Shown here piece by piece: positions 36,649 to 53,880 of a stretch of 64,000 nt of DNA (positions are counted from its first letter, which is position 1; the number at the start of each line of letters is the position of its first letter). Origin of the DNA: Clostridiales bacterium. GTDB taxonomy: Bacteria; Bacillota; Clostridia; Lachnospirales; Lachnospiraceae. The DNA is taken from the NCBI GenBank assembly GCA_022770525.1, contig JALEHN010000017.1:1-64000 (forward strand), in the 5' to 3' direction. Under the pieces are notes generated by a model, which searched no databases, was not told where the DNA came from, and saw only the letters and a program-made list of their open reading frames with translations. Position numbers and translations under genes: made by a program.

Positions 36649-39600
36649 TTATTTATTCAGGTTTTTATTTGCCGTTGCAAGCATCAGTTTGATACGGTTG
36701 ACCTGGTTAACTTCGCTGGCACCCGGGTCATAGTCGATAGCGACGATATTTGCTTTCGGATACTGGCGGCGCAGCTCCTTGATAACACCTTTGCCGACGA
36801 TATGGTTCGGAAGGCAGCCAAACGGCTGTGTACATACAATGTTTGGCGCGCCCTGATGAATCAGTTCAATCATTTCACCGGTCAAAAACCATCCTTCGCC
36901 GGTCTGGTTGCCGAGGGATACGATCGGTTCCGCATATTTGGCAAGTTCCTGGATTTTTGCCTGTTCAGTAAAGTGCTTACTTTGAGCCAGCTCCTTACGG
37001 GCAGTATTTCTGATCACTTCCAGAGCCTTGATACCCATATTGCTGATGACAGCAGCTTTTTTTGTCTTACCAAGCTTTTCATGCTTAAAGTTCGTGTTAT
37101 AGAAACAGTACAGGAAGAAGTCTAAAAGGTCTGGCATGACAGCTTCGGCACCTTCGGATTCCAGAAGGTTGACAAGGTAGTTATTGGCTGAAGGCGAGAA
37201 CTTTACAAGGATTTCGCCGACAATACCGACGCGTGGTTTTTTCATATCTTCATGGATCGGCAGTTCATCAAATTCTCTGATGATATCCCTGACATTTTGT
37301 TTGAAGCTGCGCTTATTCTGTCCTGTCAGTGATTCAATACATATTTTTTCCCATTTTTTATGAAGAGCATTGGCTGAACCCGGTTCCACTTCATATGGAC
37401 GCATACGGTAAAGGACACGCATAAATACGTCACCGTATACAATGGCTTCCATAGCTGCTGTAAGGAGCGGCAGCGTGAACTTAAAGCCCGGATTTTTCTC
37501 AATACCCTGGGCGCTTAAGGCGATGACAGGGATTTGCGGCATGCCGGCGTTTCCGAGGGCACGGCGGATAAAGCCGACATAGTTTGTGGCACGGCAGCCG
37601 CCGCCGGTCTGAGACATAGCCACAGCAACTTTATTTAAATCGTATTTGCCTGAAAGCAGCGCCTTCATAATCTGTCCAACAACACAGATGGACGGATAGC
37701 AGGCATCATTGTTCACATACTTTAATCCGATATCAATGGCTTCTTTATCGCAGTCCGGCAAGAGCTCAACAAGAAGGCCGTTATGGCGCAGTGCCGGTGC
37801 AAGCATATCAAAGTGCAGCGGTGTCATGTTTGGCACTAATATGGTATAATCTTTGCGCATTTCTTCGGTGAACAGCACACGATTGTGGGCGCTTGATACC
37901 ATATGTCCCGTGATATGCTTCTGGTCGCGCATTCTGATGGCAGCAATCATAGAACGGATACGGATTCTTGCGGCACCGAGGTTGCTGACCTCATCAATCT
38001 TTAAACATGTATAAAGACGGCCGGAACCTGTCATAATATCTTTGACCTGATCTGTCGTAACAGCATCAAGACCGCATCCGAAAGAGTTTAACTGAATCAG
38101 TTCAAGGTCGTTGTCAGCTTTGACGACCTGTGCGGCACGGTAAAGTCTTGAGTGATACATCCACTGGTCAGAAACAATCAACGGACGCTCAACTTTGGCA
38201 AGATGAGCCACACTGTCTTCGGTGAGGACAGCCAGACCGTAGGAAGTAATCAATTCAGGAATACCGTGGTTAATTTCACCGTCAATGTGATATGGCCGGC
38301 CTGCGAGAACGATGCCTTTCATATGATGTTCTTTAATAAAGGCCAGTGTTTCCTCACCTTTCTTTTCCATATCTTCATGGGCTTTGGCAAGCTCCATCCA
38401 GGCTTTGCTGCATGCTTGGACAATTTCCTTTTTAGGAATATTAAAGGCGGCGCCGATTTCTTCGTTGAGACGTTTTGTAATATGGTCAATGCTGTCCATA
38501 GATAAAAACGGGTTCATAAAATGAATATTCTGGTCTTTGATTTCTTCCACATTATTTTTAATATTTTCGGAATAGGATGTCACAATCGGACAATTGTAAT
38601 GATTGTTGGCATCCGGTGTTTCATTTCTTTCATAAGGAATGGACGGATAGAAGATAAAGTCCACACCCTGTTTAATGAGCCACATAATGTGACCGTGTAC
38701 GAGCTTGGCAGGATAACAAACCGATTCACTCGGAATGGATTCAATGCCAAGTGAATATATTTTTGATGATGAAGCCGGTGAGAGGACAACCTTAAACCCA
38801 AGTTCTGTAAAGAATGTAAACCAGAACGGATAGTTCTCGTACATATTCAGAACTCTCGGTATACCGACGGTGCCTCGAAAGGCCAGGTCATCGGTCAGCG
38901 GTTCATAATCAAGCATACGTTTTAATTTGTAGGCGAAAAGGTTCGGGACATCGTCTTTTCTTTTGGCTTTGCCAAGGCCGATCTCACAGCGGTTTCCGGT
39001 GATAAACTGACGGCCGCCTGAGAAACGGTTAATGGTTAAGTGACAGTTGTTTGTACAGCCCTTGCACCGTGTCATGCTTGTGGTGTACTTAAGGTTCACA
39101 ATCTGATCCAGTGTGAGCATGGTAGATTCCGTGCCGTCGTAGCGCTCTCTCGCAATCAGTGCCGCACCGAAGGCACCCATGATACCGGCGATATCCGGCC
39201 GCACAGCTTCACATTCGGAAATTTTTTCAAAGCTTCGAAGCACAGCGTCATTGTAGAATGTTCCGCCCTGTACAACGATCTTTTTGCCAAGATCCTTAGG
39301 GTCTGTCAATTTGATAACCTTTAAAAGGGCATTTTTTATAACAGAGTAAGCAAGACCGGCGGAAATATCGCCGACTGTGGCGCCTTCTTTCTGGGCCTGT
39401 TTAACGTTGGAGTTCATAAATACGGTACATCTTGAACCAAGGTCGATCGGTTCAGGTGCAAATAAAGCAACTTTGGCAAAATCTTCGATTTTATAGTTCA
39501 GTGATTTGGCAAAGGTTTCGATAAATGAACCGCAGCCTGAAGAACATGCTTCATTGAGCTGTACGCTGTCAACGGAGTTATTATGTATTTTGATGCATTT

Positions 39601-40881
39601 CATATCCTGTCCGCCGATATCAAGGACACAGTCAACTTCCGGTTCGAAGAAAGCAGCGGCATAATAGTGGGCAACCGTTTCAACTTCGCCCTCATCAAGC
39701 ATCAGCGCAGCTTTAATCAGAGCCTCGCCGTAACCTGTGGAGCAGGAATTGACAATGCGGGCGCTGTCCGGCAGAATTTCCGTAATTTCTTTGATCGCAC
39801 GGATGGTTGTATTTAACGGACTGCCGTTATTGCTGCTGTAAAATGAATAGAGCAGTGTGCCGTCTTCACCCACAACAGCGACTTTTGTCGTCGTGGAACC
39901 GGCATCAATGCCGAGGTAGCAGTTGCCTTCGTAGTCGGATAGCGGCGCTTTGGCAACAGTATGTTTATTGTGTCGGGCAAGGAATTCATCATATTCTGCC
40001 TGATCTTTAAACAGCGGCTCCATACGCTTTGATTCAGCCTCGATCGTAATATCCTGTGATAAAGTGTCGATCAGCTGACGAATATTCATCTTATTGTCTT
40101 CTTTGTAATTCAGTGCGGCACCGATCGCTGCAAACAGATGAGAATTTTCCGGCGCGATAATGGCATCACCGGTTAAGTTCAAAGTTCTGATAAAGCAGTT
40201 TTTAAGCTCCGAAAGGAAGTGGAGAGGACCTCCGAGAAATGCAACGTTGCCACGGATCGGTTTGCCGCATGCAAGTCCGCTGATGGTCTGGTTCACAACC
40301 GCCTGAAAAATGGAAACAGACAAGTCTTCCTTTGTGGCGCCTTCATTGATTAACGGCTGGATGTCCGATTTGGCGAATACACCGCATCTGGCAGCAATCG
40401 GATAAACAGCTTTGTAGTTTTTTGCATATTCATTGAGACCTGCGGCATCTGTCTGGAGCAGTGAAGCCATCTGGTCAATAAATGAACCTGTACCGCCGGC
40501 ACAGATGCCGTTCATACGCTGCTCGATGCTGCCGCCGGTGAAATAAATGATTTTCGCATCTTCACCGCCAAGTTCGATGGCCACATCTGTGTGCGGCGCA
40601 TAAAGCTCAAGGGCTGAAGATACAGAAATAACTTCCTGGACGAAAGGAACGCCCAGAACTTTGGAAATGGACATACCGCCGGAACCTGTGATCATCGGGT
40701 GAATTTCAATGTCACCAAGCTGTACCTGTGCCTTCTTTACAAGACCAAGAAGTGTCTCACGGATGTTGGCGAAATGTCTTTCGTAATCGGAAAATAAGAC
40801 ATTTTTATCGGCATCAAGTACTGCAACTTTGACTGTCGTTGAACCGATATCAATGCCAAGGGTATATAAATGATTTATCAT
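36649..40881 (-). CDS. Giant fused 2-hydroxyacyl-CoA dehydratase activase / DUF2229 / HgdB-like protein
   Basis: 1410 residues. Two ASKHA ATPase domains of the BadF/BcrD/HgdC type: residues 1-265 ([10 protein letters not shown]; Fe-S Cys in [10 protein letters not shown]) and about 320-585 ([20 protein letters not shown]). Then a DUF2229-like region from about 620 (RCKGCTNNC, cysteine-rich) and a C-terminal HgdB/double-cubane-type domain ([10 protein letters not shown] near 1085). Small homologues use ATP to drive low-potential electron transfer to a [4Fe-4S] partner. The fused long form is typical of Clostridia and is linked to double-cubane cluster proteins. Substrate unknown. Start ATG at 40881 has its Shine-Dalgarno 25 bases away, across a hairpin. 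Confidence 0.88.
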
Positions 40882-47992: not shown

Positions 47993-48045
47993 AAAAAGGG
48001 TAATCTCCTCAGAGATTGAGGAGATTGCCCTTTTTTTCTTTTGAG
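47993..48045 (+). terminator. Terminator after the FHA gene
   Basis: A 19-bp perfect stem (47993-48011 with 48017-48035), loop GAGAT, then T-run and CTTTT. Confidence 0.9.
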
Positions 48046-48065
48046 ATTTTTTGAATAATGTTTTC

Positions 48066-48077
48066 ATAATAACGGAA
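48066..48077 (+). promoter_or_regulatory. 12-nt motif shared with the permease promoter, copy 1
   Basis: ATAATAACGGAA, also at 49739-49750. Here it could cover a CATAAT -10 box (48065-48070; TTGAGA -35, 18 bases apart) and the transcription start, upstream of the TauE/SafE gene. Confidence 0.5.
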
Positions 48078-48140
48078 GACCTGGCAGTTTTATGCTACTG
48101 TTAAAGTATTAGATTAAAACTACAGTCAGGAGGAAGAAAA

Positions 48141-48929
48141 ATGTTATCTGTATTATTGTTTTTTGTATGTCTTTTAGCATCAAGTATAGGCGCAGTTGTA
48201 GGCGCGGGCGGCGGAGTGATTATTAAACCGGTGCTGGATATGCTTGGTGTTCTTCCGGTGTCTACCGTCAGCTTTTGTGCAGGATGTACGGTGCTTGGTA
48301 TGTCACTTTGCTCACTGGTCAGAAATCGGCATGATGGAGTGAAGCTTCAGATTAAAACAAGCACAGCTCTGGCGATAGGCGCTGTAGGTGGTGGACTTCT
48401 CGGCAAGTGGCTTTTTGAACTTGTAAGAAACGGCTTTGGGGATGAACGGATGCTTGGCGCTATTCAGGCGATATGCCTGACGCTGATTACGTTCGGTGTA
48501 TTTCTTTACATATGTAATAAAAATAAATTGCCATCCATGCATGTGAATAATCTTTTAGCGGCTGTCGTGATCGGCGTTTTTTTAGGTGTGATTTCTTCTT
48601 TTCTTGGCATTGGCGGAGGTACAAGCAATGTTGCTGTATTATTCTTTTTCTTTTCCATGGATGCCAAAGAAGCGGCAAAAAATTCATTATATATTATTAT
48701 TTTTTCACAGATATCAAGTATATTTACAGCAATAGTAACAGGATCGGTACCTTCGTTTGAGGTACTTCATTTAATTTCTATGATTTTTGGCGGTATTGGC
48801 GGCGCTTTGACAGGGGCAGCTATATCTAAAAAAATTGATAACAGGGGTGTTGAAAAAATATTAAAGATTTTACTGCTTGCACTGGTAGCGCTGGACTTTT
48901 ATAATGTTATAAAATACATATTCATATAG
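48141..48929 (+). CDS. TauE/SafE family sulfite/sulfonate exporter-like membrane protein
   Basis: 262 residues. Seven to eight hydrophobic segments, with the repeat motif GAGGGVIIKPVL (about 21-32) and its second copy GIGGGTSNVAVL (about 157-168). Family members export sulfite or organosulfur anions, others are of unknown specificity. ATG after CAGGAGGAAGAAAA. Precedes the Crp-type regulator (27 bases), thus first gene of the sulfatase cassette. Confidence 0.88.
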   Translation: MLSVLLFFVCLLASSIGAVVGAGGGVIIKPVLDMLGVLPVSTVSFCAGCTVLGMSLCSLVRNRHDGVKLQIKTSTALAIGAVGGGLLGKWLFELVRNGFGDERMLGAIQAICLTLITFGVFLYICNKNKLPSMHVNNLLAAVVIGVFLGVISSFLGIGGGTSNVAVLFFFFSMDAKEAAKNSLYIIIFSQISSIFTAIVTGSVPSFEVLHLISMIFGGIGGALTGAAISKKIDNRGVEKILKILLLALVALDFYNVIKYIFI

Positions 48930-48956
48930 TGAATATATAATATGGGGAGGTATAAC

Positions 48957-49637
48957 ATGTTAACAGCGGAGGCTTTAAAAAAGGTACCATTATGCAGCAG
49001 TATGCCAATGGATGAGCTTAAAAAACTTGGTGTGGTATTATCTGAATATTCTTTTATAAAAACAATGGAGCCGAATGAACGTCTGATGGAGATCGGAAAA
49101 CGTACAGAATATTTGTATTTACTTGAAAGCGGGATGATAAGAACCGTGAATTATTCGTCGGCCGGTGAAGAAATATTTTTTTACTATTTTCAGGAGAGAA
49201 CATTTATCGGCGTTGTCAATATTATATGCAGAGTAAAAAATTATTCAGATTACATAACAATGAAAAAAAGCCGGCTTTATTGTATACCTGTAGAAAATTT
49301 TTATAAAGCGCTGGATGAGATTCCGTCATTTACTAAAGCTGTGCTTGAGGAGGTCAGTAAAAAGTCACTGGATCTTGTTCAGCTTGTTGTAGTTTCACGG
49401 CGTAAAAAAACAAGAGACCGTATTTGTTCATATCTATATTTAAATTATATGAAAACCGGTGAGAAAATGTACAGTACACCTCTGACAATCGAAATGCTTG
49501 CAAAGACACTGAATCTGACACGGTCGGCGCTCAGTAAGGAGCTGCATCAGATGGAAGATGAAGGACTTATTACTGTTTTGAAAAATAAGATTCAGATTAT
49601 CAATCCCGAAAAACTGGAAGACAGTTTGTTCTTTTGA
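48957..49637 (+). CDS. Crp/Fnr family transcriptional regulator
   Basis: 226 residues from the ATG after GGGGAGGTATAAC. Effector-binding cNMP-like beta-barrel (about 20-125), long helix, and C-terminal HTH of the Crp type (TPLTIEMLAKTLNLTRSALSKELHQMEDEG, residues about 175-205). No N-terminal cysteine cluster, so not Fnr-type Fe-S sensing. Ligand unknown. Cotranscribed with the exporter gene; regulates the permease/sulfatase genes by position (inference). Confidence 0.9.
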   Translation: MLTAEALKKVPLCSSMPMDELKKLGVVLSEYSFIKTMEPNERLMEIGKRTEYLYLLESGMIRTVNYSSAGEEIFFYYFQERTFIGVVNIICRVKNYSDYITMKKSRLYCIPVENFYKALDEIPSFTKAVLEEVSKKSLDLVQLVVVSRRKKTRDRICSYLYLNYMKTGEKMYSTPLTIEMLAKTLNLTRSALSKELHQMEDEGLITVLKNKIQIINPEKLEDSLFF

Positions 49638-49832
49638 AAAATACTGGTTTTAGCTTTTTATGCTTATCTTTTTAGTTAATATCATAAAAAAATATGCAAA
49701 GATATGAAAAAAGCTAAAAAAATGTACAAAATGTGTTTATAATAACGGAAAAGTCACAGAATCAATGATATATTTTTAATATCATATTTCTGCAGAATTT
49801 GTAAAATGTAAATGTAATCAGGAGGAGTTATT
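49638..49832 (+). promoter_or_regulatory. Permease promoter region
   Basis: TTTTAGCTTTTT (49648-49659) and AAAAAGCTAAAA (49707-49718) form a long AT-rich inverted repeat. A TATAAT at 49738-49743 has no -35 consensus, which suggests an activator. ATAATAACGGAA (49739-49750) equals the motif at 48066-48077. ATG at 49833 follows AGGAGGAG. Confidence 0.55.
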
Positions 49833-51245
49833 ATGAACGAAAAAGCTGTTCAAGTTGCGGATGAAAAACTGTCAAAGAAACAAAAAATAGGGTGGTTAGT
49901 TGCGATTGCTGTACCGGTAATTCTTCTTCTTATACCATGCACAGAAGCGTACACGCTGCAGATTAAGGAATTCTTTGCAATACTTTCATTTGTAATGATT
50001 ATGTTCGCTTTTGAACTGTTTTCAAACAACATGATACCGTCAATAATATTGAGCATGTTGTTTCTGATTTTGAATCTGGGAACGCCGGCACAGATATTTT
50101 CAGGATGGGCAAATAATATTCCATGGGCAATGATTGGTTCTTTAATCCTTGTAGGTGTTATGAACGGAACAAATCTGCTTAAACGAATGTCCTATGGACT
50201 TATCATGAAAACCAACACAAAAGTCACGACAATTTTAATCATATTTAATGTTATTGGTTTGGCTATGTCTACTGTACTTGCGGTAAATATTGGTTTCCCG
50301 CTTGCAGTACTATCACTTGGTCTTTGTCAGGCATTAAATATTGAGCCCAATTCAGATACAGCCGCTAAAATCGTTATTAATTCTTATTTTTCCATGACTG
50401 TTGGCGGAACTGCTTTTTTAGGTGCATTGACTTTAATGGGAATTGAAGTGATCGGTACTTCTATTGAAGGGTTTAATGTTACATACGTACAGTACTTTAT
50501 TCATAACTGGCCATTTCTTATTTATGGTTTTGTGTTGATGCTCGTTGTGAATAAAATGTTCAAAAATGATCAGACAATTCCTGATAAGAGTGTTCTGAAA
50601 GAAGAACATGCAAAGCTTGGTAAAATGGATTTTAAAGAAAAGAAATTGATTCTTCTTTTAGCTGTATTATTTGTTTGTATGCTTTTAAACGGTGTGCTGA
50701 AAATCCAGATTGGTTTTATGATTTTAATTGCTGCGGTTGTTTGTTTCCTTCCATTTGTCAAACTGGGTACAAATAAGGCTTTGTCTGAAATTAAGTGGCC
50801 GCTTGCTGTGTTTATGACAGCATGTATTGGTATAGGCGTAATCGCAGCCAATGTGGGTGCAGGTCAGTTTGTTGCGGATATGTTTATGCCGTTGTTTGGA
50901 AAACTGGGGCAGATTGGTTCTTTGATACTTACATATATCATTGGTGTTTTGATGAATTTTGTGCTGACACCGTTGGCAGCTCAGTCAACGATGCTTATTC
51001 CGCTTTCACAGGTAGGAGCAAATCTTGGAATTTCGCCAAATATTATTTTATATGTATTCCAGAATGGTGTTAATCAGGCATTGCTTCCATATGAAATCGC
51101 ATTCGCATTATTCTATTTCAGCCTTGGTTATATGAAGCTTAAACAGTTTGCAAAAGCAGGACTGATTATGCTTGTGACGAATTTTATCTGGATTTTTGTT
51201 GTAATGATTCCTTATTGGAAACTGATTGGAATTTTCGGAATGTAG
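49833..51245 (+). CDS. SLC13/DASS-like anion permease
   Basis: 470 residues with about eleven membrane segments. A hydrophobic N-terminus then paired helical repeats; NIGFPLAVLSLG and VLTPLAAQSTMLIPLSQ (about 380) are like the substrate-binding re-entrant parts of DASS carriers. Substrates of this family are sulfate, dicarboxylates and other anions. Its position directly before a sulfatase (24 bases) implies import of an anionic, perhaps sulfated, molecule. Family assignment is less certain than the membrane topology. Confidence 0.8.
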   Translation: MNEKAVQVADEKLSKKQKIGWLVAIAVPVILLLIPCTEAYTLQIKEFFAILSFVMIMFAFELFSNNMIPSIILSMLFLILNLGTPAQIFSGWANNIPWAMIGSLILVGVMNGTNLLKRMSYGLIMKTNTKVTTILIIFNVIGLAMSTVLAVNIGFPLAVLSLGLCQALNIEPNSDTAAKIVINSYFSMTVGGTAFLGALTLMGIEVIGTSIEGFNVTYVQYFIHNWPFLIYGFVLMLVVNKMFKNDQTIPDKSVLKEEHAKLGKMDFKEKKLILLLAVLFVCMLLNGVLKIQIGFMILIAAVVCFLPFVKLGTNKALSEIKWPLAVFMTACIGIGVIAANVGAGQFVADMFMPLFGKLGQIGSLILTYIIGVLMNFVLTPLAAQSTMLIPLSQVGANLGISPNIILYVFQNGVNQALLPYEIAFALFYFSLGYMKLKQFAKAGLIMLVTNFIWIFVVMIPYWKLIGIFGM

Positions 51246-51269
51246 TGTTAAGAAAGCTGGTGCAAAATA

Positions 51270-52769
51270 ATGAATAAAAAACCAAACATCATTTTAATGT
51301 TTATTGATGATCTGGGAATCGGTGATGTATCATGCTATAATGAAAATTCACAGATTCATACAGCAAATATTGACAGACTGGCACAGGAGGGTATCATGTT
51401 TAGAGATGCCCATGCCACCAGTGCTTTATGTACACCTTCAAGATACGGGCTTCTGACAGGCCGTTATAACTGGCGTTCATGTTTAAAAAAGCTGGTTTAT
51501 GTAAAATCTGAGGACAACATGATTGAAGAGGGCCGAATGACGCTGGCTTCAATGCTTAAGAATGAAGGCTATCAGACAGCGTGTATCGGAAAATGGCATC
51601 TTGGTATGCAGTGGGTACATACCGGTGACGGACCATATGACGTGGATTATTCAAAACCATACAAAATGGGACCGAATGAATTCGGATTTGATTATTTCTT
51701 TGGGTTAATGGCTTCACTTAGCCAGCCGCCATATGTTTATCTTGAAAATGATCATGCGACAGCTATACCGGATACGGTCAGCGGCGTAAAACCGGATATG
51801 CTGTTTAATTGTGCATATAATCAGACATGGCTGCCGGGACCGACAGTCAGTGGCTTTAATGTCCGTAATGTTGTTCCGACATGCCAGAAAAAAGTACTTG
51901 AACAAATTGATAAATTTACGGAAAAAGATGCGCCTTTCTTCCTTTATTACCCTACACCGGCAGTTCATGTACCGCTGCTTCCGAGTGAGGAATTTGAAGG
52001 AAAATCCGGTCTTGGTCCATATGGTGATTTTGTTCTCCAGACCGATGCGATGGTTGGAGAGATTATGGAAAAACTGGAAGAAAAAGGTATTTCGGACAAT
52101 ACAATGTTTATTTTTGCCAGTGACAACGGTTGCGGTGCCAATGTCGATTATCCGAAACTGATCTCGCAGGGTCACAATCCAAGTTACATTTATCGTGGAT
52201 GTAAAGGAGATATCTGGGAAGGCGGTCACCGTATTCCATATATTGTTAAATATCCGGGGGTTATACCGGAAGGTATCGTATCTGATCAGATGGTATCCCT
52301 TTCGGATATCATGGCAACATGGGGCGAATGCTTTGATATGGAAATTCCTGATAATGCAGGTGAAGATTCCATTTCCCATTACTGTCTGTGGAAGGGCGAA
52401 GATAAGCAGGTGAGAGAAGATATAGTCATGTCCTCCCTTAATGGCTCTCTTTCCCTGCGGGAAGGCCCTTGGAAACTGGAACTTTGCCCGGGTTCCGGCG
52501 GACCTACCGATGCAATGAATAAAACTGATTTGCGCGCATTGCCGAGATTCCAGCTCTACAATATGATCGGAGATGTTGGAGAACGTTATAATCTGTATGA
52601 GAAACAGCCTGAAATTGCTGAGCGACTGCGCACGAAACTGATTAAGTATATCGAAGACGGACGTTCGACCCCTGGTGCAAAGCAGCAAAATTATAATGGT
52701 GAAAACTGTTGGGAAGAAATTGACTGGTGGGTAAATAATAAAGAAGTCCGTATTGATACGAAACTTTAA
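51270..52769 (+). CDS. Cytoplasmic Cys-type sulfatase (arylsulfatase family)
   Basis: 499 residues. The sulfatase signature C54-T-P-S-R58 followed by YGLLTGR requires conversion of Cys54 to formylglycine; metal site residues D13, D14 in FIDDLG and FASDNGCG (about 285). No signal peptide, so it works inside the cell, unusual for host-glycan sulfatases. The Cys-type in anaerobes is matured by an anSME radical SAM enzyme, which is not in this window. Cotranscribed with the permease and the UroD-type gene (14 bases). Confidence 0.92.
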   Translation: MNKKPNIILMFIDDLGIGDVSCYNENSQIHTANIDRLAQEGIMFRDAHATSALCTPSRYGLLTGRYNWRSCLKKLVYVKSEDNMIEEGRMTLASMLKNEGYQTACIGKWHLGMQWVHTGDGPYDVDYSKPYKMGPNEFGFDYFFGLMASLSQPPYVYLENDHATAIPDTVSGVKPDMLFNCAYNQTWLPGPTVSGFNVRNVVPTCQKKVLEQIDKFTEKDAPFFLYYPTPAVHVPLLPSEEFEGKSGLGPYGDFVLQTDAMVGEIMEKLEEKGISDNTMFIFASDNGCGANVDYPKLISQGHNPSYIYRGCKGDIWEGGHRIPYIVKYPGVIPEGIVSDQMVSLSDIMATWGECFDMEIPDNAGEDSISHYCLWKGEDKQVREDIVMSSLNGSLSLREGPWKLELCPGSGGPTDAMNKTDLRALPRFQLYNMIGDVGERYNLYEKQPEIAERLRTKLIKYIEDGRSTPGAKQQNYNGENCWEEIDWWVNNKEVRIDTKL

Positions 52770-52783
52770 TCAGGAGGCAGGTT

Positions 52784-53749
52784 ATGATTAGTGAACGTGA
52801 AAATGCGCTTCGTATTTATTCCGGTAAGGAATCACCCGAATATATTCCGACTTCAATGAGCTGCTATAAAACAGTAATGCCTTCCTGCATGTATGAAAGG
52901 CCTGCAGGTTTTAAGGACGGGTATGACTGGTTTGGTGTTTATTGGGCCTGGGATGAAAAAACAAAAGGATATACGGCAGATCCGAGAAAGGCATATGTCG
53001 TTCCGGATATTGCACATTGGAAGGATACAGTAAAATTTCCTGACCTGGGAAGCATTGACTGGGATGCTGCAGCTAAAAAAGATCTTGAAGGCTTTGACAA
53101 AAACAGCAAACTTTTAAGAATTTTTCTTGAAAGCGGACCTTTTGAACGCCTGCACAGCCTGACAGGCTTTGAAGAAGCTTTTATAAGCATGTATGAAGAA
53201 CCGGAGGCGTTTCATGAATTAATGGAGGCAATTACGGATTTTCGTGTTGAAGAAATCAGGCATATAGGTAAAGCTTATCATCCGGATGTTATATTAAATA
53301 TGGATGATCTGGCCAGCGCGACAGCACCTTTTTTCTCATTGGAAATGTATAGAGAATTTATAAAACCTTATGAAAAGAGAATTGCTGACGCGATTCATGA
53401 AAACGGTGCTTATTTCCTTTACCACAGCTGCGGAAGAATGCAGTGCTTCATCGATGATCTGCTGGAGATTGGTGTCGATGCATTTAATGCATTGACACCG
53501 TGTAACGACCAGGAGGAGATTATGAAAAAATATGGTTCACGGATAGTTGTTGATGGCGGTATGGACAGTATTTTAATCAGTACCGAAGGCGTATCAGAGG
53601 AGGAACTCCGATGTGAAATGCGAAGAGCCTGTGATATCTTCGGACCATATCAACGATTTATTGTCCATCCGGCGGCATTAATTCCAAGAAACAGAGAAAT
53701 TCTTCTGGATGAAGCCGAAAATTACGGTCACCAGTTTTACTGTACATAA
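52784..53749 (+). CDS. Uroporphyrinogen decarboxylase family protein, methyltransferase-like
   Basis: 321 residues with the UroD (TIM-barrel) fold. YHSCGRM (about 205) gives a likely zinc-binding Cys as in corrinoid-dependent methyltransferases of the MtaA/CmuA family. The active-site residues of true UroD are not evident and no heme genes are near. Hypothesis: transfers a methyl group to or from a corrinoid. No corrinoid-binding protein is in this operon. Starts after CAGGAGGCAGGTT; a strong terminator follows, so it closes the cassette. Confidence 0.82.
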   Translation: MISERENALRIYSGKESPEYIPTSMSCYKTVMPSCMYERPAGFKDGYDWFGVYWAWDEKTKGYTADPRKAYVVPDIAHWKDTVKFPDLGSIDWDAAAKKDLEGFDKNSKLLRIFLESGPFERLHSLTGFEEAFISMYEEPEAFHELMEAITDFRVEEIRHIGKAYHPDVILNMDDLASATAPFFSLEMYREFIKPYEKRIADAIHENGAYFLYHSCGRMQCFIDDLLEIGVDAFNALTPCNDQEEIMKKYGSRIVVDGGMDSILISTEGVSEEELRCEMRRACDIFGPYQRFIVHPAALIPRNREILLDEAENYGHQFYCT

Positions 53750-53760
53750 TAAAAAAGTCA

Positions 53761-53794
53761 GCAAAAAAAGAATCCTTCGGGATTCTTTTTTTGC
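53761..53794. terminator. Strong bidirectional terminator after the UroD gene
   Basis: GCAAAAAAAGAATCC (53761-53775), loop TTCG, GGATTCTTTTTTTGC (53780-53794). Confidence 0.9.
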
Positions 53795-53880
53795 TGTCCT
53801 GTAAAATAAAAGTAATTATTCAGAGCAACCTCCAAAATGCTTCGCATTCCGTCGATGAGGCGTATTCGCCAAACAAAAAA
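53795..53880 (-). other. Structured segment downstream of rpmB
   Basis: On the minus strand it begins with GGCG-AATA-CGCC, then AATGC-GAA-GCATT, then GGAGGTTGC, and ends at the terminator 53761-53794. It lies between two terminators. Possible small RNA or a repeated intergenic element; no ORF. Confidence 0.4.

Follow-up and report, generated by a model that had tools for sequence, protein, structure and literature searches.

Five neighbouring genes of a gut-type anaerobe of the Lachnospiraceae are best explained, taken as a whole, as a regulon for the induced import of a small sulfated organic anion, its desulfation, sulfate export and corrinoid-dependent O-demethylation, a reading that we regard as about evenly balanced between right and wrong. 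The genes lie in a 64,000-nt stretch of DNA, which is referred to below as the window. Their grouping, the promoter element that they have in common and the capacity of the genome for sulfatase maturation and corrinoid chemistry are supported by computational analysis. Each type of component is known; for the combination of sulfatase and UroD-type protein, with its substrate, we found no description in the open-access full-text literature.

Organization of the gene set

Reading of the ORFs and Pfam matches, each above its cut-off, place five genes one after another on the plus strand, i.e. those for a TauE/SafE-family exporter (TauE), a Crp/Fnr-family regulator (Crp), a DASS/SLC13-type permease (DASS), a sulfatase and a URO-D-family protein (UroD) (Table 1). 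The first-pass annotation had described them as running in one direction with gaps of 27, 195, 24 and 14 nt. The genes, their order and the last three gaps stand; the first gap is 12 nt, and a start of the Crp gene at the second ATG (48957) would restore the 27 nt. The terminator placed at the end of the set was recovered as a 17-pair hairpin. A second hairpin (47993-48035) lies between the set and the upstream FHA gene, and hairpins thus border the gene set at both ends. An Rfam scan of the whole 64,000-nt window gave no match. Elsewhere in the window, a 1410-aa ORF on the minus strand (36649-40881) carries BcrAD_BadFG and DUF2229 domains and is a protein of the CoA-dehydratase-activator type.

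Table 1. Features of the gene set (positions within the window)
Feature	Position	Strand	Evidence
Putative Crp-type operator before TauE-Crp	48060..48075	+	GTTTTCATAATAACGG; differs at one position from the shared 16-mer; 66 nt 5' of the TauE start
Exporter of the TauE/SafE family, putatively for sulfate (or sulfite)	48141..48929	+	PF01925, 102.7 bits (cut-off 32.6)
Regulator of the Crp/Fnr family; would activate the set in response to a ligand	48942..49637	+	HTH_Crp_2, 46.6 bits; cNMP_binding above cut-off
Putative Crp-type operator before the DASS gene	49733..49748	+	GTGTTTATAATAACGG; exact match to the shared 16-mer
-10-like hexamer TATATT, 20 nt 3' of the DASS operator	49769..49774	+	Aligned over seven sites, p = 0.0006 against shuffled flanks
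Divergent DASS/SLC13-type permease, putative sulfated-anion importer	49833..51245	+	PF00939 (Na_sulph_symp), 82.4 bits (cut-off 27); PF03600, 45.4 bits
Predicted cytoplasmic formylglycine sulfatase of the Cys type; S1_15-like but lacking the galacto Asp-Arg pair	51270..52769	+	PF00884, 173.4 bits (cut-off 25)
URO-D-family protein, putative corrinoid-dependent O-demethylase (methyltransferase I)	52784..53749	+	PF01208, 73.4 bits; HxCG and DD kept
Terminator-like hairpin, 3' end of the set	53759..53796	+	17-pair stem

Conservation and gene neighbourhoods

When about 85,000 species genomes were scanned for the sulfatase, three close relatives were found, at the loci L034 (89% identity), L032 (86%) and L033 (76%). 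L034, also from Lachnospiraceae, contains the whole set in the order Crp-DASS-sulfatase-UroD-TauE (58, 73, 89, 70 and 64% identity, respectively), followed by a maturase gene. It is flanked by a LanC-domain lantibiotic-synthetase-like gene on one side and by tig-clpP-clpX-lon, named by eye, on the other. As these flanks are unlike those of the window, the cassette appears to have moved, or to have been kept, as a unit. The occurrence of the same five genes at this different site, together with the common promoter element described below, means that the five-gene grouping is not due to chance.

The remaining two loci differ. L032 carries genes for Crp, a VOC/glyoxalase protein, a 264-aa protein, a different DASS (35% identity) and the sulfatase, with no UroD, and L033 has the sulfatase and a maturase only. 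Since UroD is missing from both, it is, as far as gene content tells, not obligatory for the sulfatase. In L032, the VOC-family and 264-aa proteins (L032:886-2107) stand in UroD's place; the latter has no Pfam or NCBIfam match.

The threshold of the sulfatase search is passed in just 7 of the 250 family genomes (six of these at 49-51% identity) and in 14 others among 392 genomes of the order (44-51%). A UroD of the window clade was found at none of the 17 loci with sulfatases at ~46-51% identity. The sulfatase-UroD pairing on which the first-pass reading relied is weakened by this: it is seen in L034, with the whole set, and not in L032, L033 or these 17 loci. What does recur is a TauE-family gene and a maturase gene beside the sulfatase, as in L034: the three are side by side in L110, L111 and L180 of other Clostridia. 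They differ from the window in their transporters, which are of the CUT1 or TctC type or not seen nearby, and in lacking a UroD of the window clade. CUT1-type sugar transporters are near related sulfatases in L107, L109 and L110, and an alpha-L-fucosidase gene in L106. L180 (3953-10104) combines a 51% identical sulfatase with a TctC-type carboxylate receptor, a metallo-beta-lactamase-fold protein, a radical SAM maturase-like protein and a TauE-family protein. A recurring core of sulfatase, maturase, TauE and some means of uptake is therefore accompanied by a further enzyme that varies, being UroD in the window and other proteins elsewhere.

These distributions bear on the possibility that the UroD gene is a passenger, which shares a promoter and a terminator with the sulfatase gene and acts on a different, co-induced compound. 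Its absence from L032, L033 and all 17 other sulfatase loci would be expected of a passenger, as would the lack of a related sulfatase within 8 kb of any of the 53 sampled clade UroD genes elsewhere; however, UroD directly follows the sulfatase gene in two genomes whose flanks differ, seemingly as part of one transcription unit, and we consider a passenger role rather improbable. In the explanation that we prefer, a desulfation and demethylation regulon, both enzymes may act on one molecule.

Proteins of 430 aa encoded beside the L107 and L108 sulfatases were considered as UroD relatives and rejected (profile comparison probability 2-3%). Another neighbour in L108 matches PF01208 with 34.6 bits. 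This URO-D protein and an NMT1-type ABC transporter are encoded 5' of a 48% identical sulfatase (L108:2487-10934), forming an independent, looser sulfatase/UroD neighbourhood.

Regulator and shared promoter element

A palindrome-like, 16-bp element, GTGTTYATAATRACRG, precedes seven transcription units at three loci, of which two are in the window (TauE-Crp, DASS), three in L034 (Crp, DASS, TauE) and two in L032 (VOC gene, DASS). The DASS operator is the sole exact match in the window genome, and two of its three sites at ≤1 mismatch are those of the cassette, a rarity that is partly circular, as the 16-mer was derived from those very sites. Downstream of the third site (C88) the genes are unrelated to the set, and the maturase contig (C83) has no site at ≤2 mismatches. 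In our judgement the strength of this evidence is the recurrence of the element across loci whose neighbouring genes are just 35-73% identical.

The best -10-like hexamer is located 19-21 nt 3' of the 16-mer at 7/7 sites (p = 0.0006 against shuffled flanks), that of the window TauE being weak (3/6). An operator near -41.5 is the placement typical of a class II Crp activator. The spacing observed here would fit such a geometry, which suggests that the genes probably belong to one regulon, and the set probably comprises two transcription units, TauE-Crp and DASS-sulfatase-UroD, under a single regulator.

The window Crp has homologues in L034 (58% identity) and L032 (47%). The arrangement resembles that of CprK-type Crp/Fnr regulators, in that the Crp/Fnr gene adjoins genes probably controlled via a palindrome, but the window Crp is not close to CprK in sequence (no CprK among its PDB matches) and the operator differs. 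CprK nevertheless provides a precedent for the sensing of aromatic ligands by a Crp/Fnr regulator (PMC2610375).

The sulfatase and its maturation

At first pass the sulfatase had been described as Cys-type and devoid of a signal peptide, and both points were confirmed: it has a CTPSR motif with Cys54 and starts with MNKKPNII. As there is no leader, the enzyme is predicted to be cytoplasmic; most homologous ORFs of PVC/Bacteroidetes start ~20-30 residues earlier. The maturation enzyme on which the initial reading depended is also encoded. A single true anaerobic sulfatase maturase (G000:C83; TIGR03942, 394.8 bits, cut-off 349.45) was found in the window genome, a 3.2-Mb draft with a completeness of 91%.

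The best PDB match of the sulfatase by sequence is an S1_15 enzyme (E 1.1e-82), and the eight best fold matches of its model (pLDDT 82.8) are all S1_15 (best E 2.3e-43). By sequence and by fold alike, these matches are 6-sulfo-Gal/GalNAc sulfatases. In one of them, BT3333, D173 and R174 bind the axial O4 of the galacto configuration (PMC6994673). The Asp-Arg pair is kept in 5/5 aligned S1_15 chains and is replaced by Ser-Gln (SLSQPPY) in the window sulfatase, its close orthologues also having SQ. A role as galactose-6-sulfate sulfatase was set aside, because this pair is missing. The window enzyme thus shares the fold and catalytic core of the S1_15 carbohydrate sulfatases BT1624 and BT3333 (PDB 7oze, 6s20), but it is leaderless and probably cytoplasmic, just 31-33% identical to these structures, and has Ser-Gln for Asp-Arg. 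Judged from the alignments, it is S1_15-like by resemblance, yet lacks the residues by which S1_15 enzymes select their substrate.

This is also where a different substrate has to be weighed, namely a small sulfated, perhaps O-methylated, carbohydrate (e.g. derived from algal or mucin glycans), which would be desulfated by an altered S1_15 sugar sulfatase and relieved of a sugar O-methyl group by UroD. The eight fold matches agree with this, as do the sugar transporters and the fucosidase gene beside the ~46-51% identical relatives (L106, L107, L109, L110). On the other hand, the residues that read the galacto O4 are changed, and the set contains no glycosidase, kinase or sugar transporter, its transporter being of the DASS type. 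Moreover, the L032 sulfatase is paired with the VOC-family and 264-aa proteins and the L180 relative with a TctC-type receptor. We regard a sugar substrate of this kind as unlikely.

Apart from the window set, a large group of S1_15-like sulfatases of PVC/Bacteroidetes (L035-L088) shows, for the most part, N-M or D-M at the position of the S1_15 D-R, and their annotation as 6-sulfo-galactose sulfatases may for this reason be wrong.

The UroD protein and its clade

Members of the UroD clade occur in 39/397 family genomes (E ≤ 1e-40), often several per genome, and the window genome has 11 URO-D places. All of the 19 clade members aligned have D174, D175, H214 and G217, and nearly all have C216. 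H214 and C216 (H-x-C) of the MtaA-type zinc site are therefore kept, and the third (terminal) Cys is absent from the clade. Within the UroD superfamily, S-methyltransferases have a His-Cys-Cys site, and O-methyltransferases replace one or both Cys (PMC10418091). Given the absent third zinc Cys, the window UroD is predicted not to be an MtaA-type thiol methyltransferase, and an O-demethylase fits better; the classic MtaA/CmuA role was set aside on the same ground. The first-pass view of an MtaA/CmuA-type transfer of methyl groups to corrinoids consequently loses the MtaA-type identity and retains the corrinoid-dependent behaviour of the clade discussed below.

A PDB search with the single UroD sequence gave no match, and the UroD profile had MtaA (4ay7) as its best hit (E 8.5e-10). 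Structure prediction, proposed at first pass to look for corrinoid and zinc sites, yielded a mediocre model (pLDDT 63.5), whose best fold match is again 4ay7 (E 9e-7). MtaA/MtbA methylcobamide:CoM methyltransferases are accordingly the closest solved structures by profile and fold, with H-x-C in common, but the window UroD lacks the third zinc Cys and scores far under the family cut-offs (TIGR01463, 58.7 bits, cut-off 235.4). With the corrinoid O-demethylases/dehalogenases of the superfamily (OdmB, VdmB, MtvB, MtoB, CdmB) it shares the URO-D fold, a putative corrinoid partner and a metal site that is not His-Cys-Cys. It differs in not being encoded beside a corrinoid protein or a second methyltransferase and in belonging to a separate, expanded Lachnospiraceae clade; CdmB gives just a 16.7-bit profile match.

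As the URO-D fold also hosts a decarboxylase and the third zinc Cys is missing, UroD might instead convert the desulfated product as a decarboxylase or as some other TIM-barrel enzyme. Uroporphyrinogen decarboxylase structures do match the mediocre model too. However, nearly all clade members retain HxCG, a motif that MtaA also has and the aligned decarboxylase chains lack, and the clade co-occurs with stand-alone corrinoid proteins and adjoins their genes in four genomes (see below), which makes a function other than methyl transfer quite improbable.

The corrinoid link

Corrinoid proteins, presupposed by the first-pass reading, are encoded in the window genome, where PF02607 matches at seven places, one of them in an 865-aa ORF of MetH size. 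A stand-alone corrinoid protein (an ORF under 400 aa, MetH-sized ORFs excluded, with one 425-aa ORF scored as absent) is present in 33/33 genomes with the UroD clade and in 6/33 without it (Fisher p = 9e-13; the negative genomes among these 66 were hand-picked and the statistic ignores phylogeny). Homologues of one particular corrinoid protein of the window genome, G000:C42 (~50% identity or more), occur in 32/33 UroD-clade genomes and in 5/33 of the others. About 2.8 kb from the C42 gene the window genome encodes a RACo-type protein, i.e. a putative reactivase.

There is no corrinoid gene inside the window set, and among 53 sampled clade UroD genes just one has a corrinoid gene within 6 kb, which implies that most clade UroDs must act in trans. 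This count had been taken as an argument against a corrinoid role, a conclusion reversed by the genome-level comparison and by adjacency in G036, G075 and G159. In these three genomes and in G067 a clade UroD adjoins a corrinoid gene whose product is 51-83% identical to the C42 protein (83% in G067). The UroD clade thus appears to behave as corrinoid-dependent methyltransferases would, and these data support UroD as an O-demethylase that would use a corrinoid protein in trans.

Regulators of the PucR or LysR type and MFS or other transporters, named by eye, recur near clade UroD genes; a regulator and a transporter are found near many of them, as in the window. A separate region of the window genome, L112 (G000:C37:62000-78000), packs two corrinoid proteins and three places with UroD matches into ~6 kb. 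This grouping of UroD and corrinoid genes is like the type 1 mlp clusters, which were proposed to serve S/Se-methyl salvage (PMC10418091).

Proposed pathway and its substrate

The permease is divergent, scoring 74.5 bits against TIGR00785 (NCBIfam dass; cut-off 198.6). Its 73% identical homologue is found in L034 only, no relative exceeds 33% identity in the 397 family genomes, and none of known substrate was found. The SNT substrate/sodium motifs were not seen at the positions where they were expected.

From these gene assignments we infer a substrate-induced catabolic regulon that would work as follows. The Crp-type protein would sense the inducer and activate the TauE-Crp and DASS-sulfatase-UroD promoters via the candidate operators, and the DASS-type permease would import a small sulfated organic anion. 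The anaerobic maturase of the genome would convert Cys54 of the sulfatase to formylglycine, and the sulfate ester, judging from family and motif, would be hydrolysed inside the cell, the freed sulfate probably being exported by the TauE-type protein. UroD would take an O-methyl group from the substrate itself or from a companion compound and transfer it to the C42 corrinoid protein encoded elsewhere, which the RACo-type protein would keep reduced.

As a first guess, not a firm one, the substrate may be a sulfated methoxy-aromatic, e.g. a methoxyphenol or phenolic-acid sulfate, and a sulfated sugar is the second, equally loosely held. The former is suggested by UroD clade relatives that cluster with phloretin-hydrolase-family enzymes. 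UroD relatives at 39 and 43% identity (L176, L177) are in clusters with a DAPG-hydrolase-family gene, phloretin hydrolase being a member of the DAPG hydrolase superfamily (PMC11868195), which favours methoxylated aromatics as substrates of the clade. More tentatively still, the set may belong to an anaerobic route that acts on a single small molecule, both sulfated and methoxylated (e.g. a methoxyphenol sulfate of the host or gut), and couples its desulfation inside the cell to its O-demethylation via a corrinoid. The large orphan UroD clade of Lachnospiraceae would then supply plug-in demethylases, served in trans by a common corrinoid protein.

UroD-family genes without an assigned role can be numerous in Lachnospiraceae, and the link to a shared corrinoid protein, together with the pairing with a sulfatase, a permease and a regulator, offers a concrete handle on these orphans. 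Because the cassette points to an inducible pathway with a likely operator and partners, its substrate should be findable by induction and assay. If this is a sulfated methoxy compound, desulfation and demethylation would be added to the processing of conjugated phenolics or drugs by gut anaerobes.

The clusters L176:1-19501 and L177:1-12000, both of Lachnospiraceae, encode a clade UroD, a DAPG/phloretin-hydrolase-family protein, Fe-hydrogenase-like and FAD fumarate-reductase-like proteins (in L177 the Fe-hydrogenase-like and fumarate-reductase-like assignments were confirmed by Pfam), MFS transporters and a PucR-type regulator, and look like an undescribed polyphenol-type pathway.
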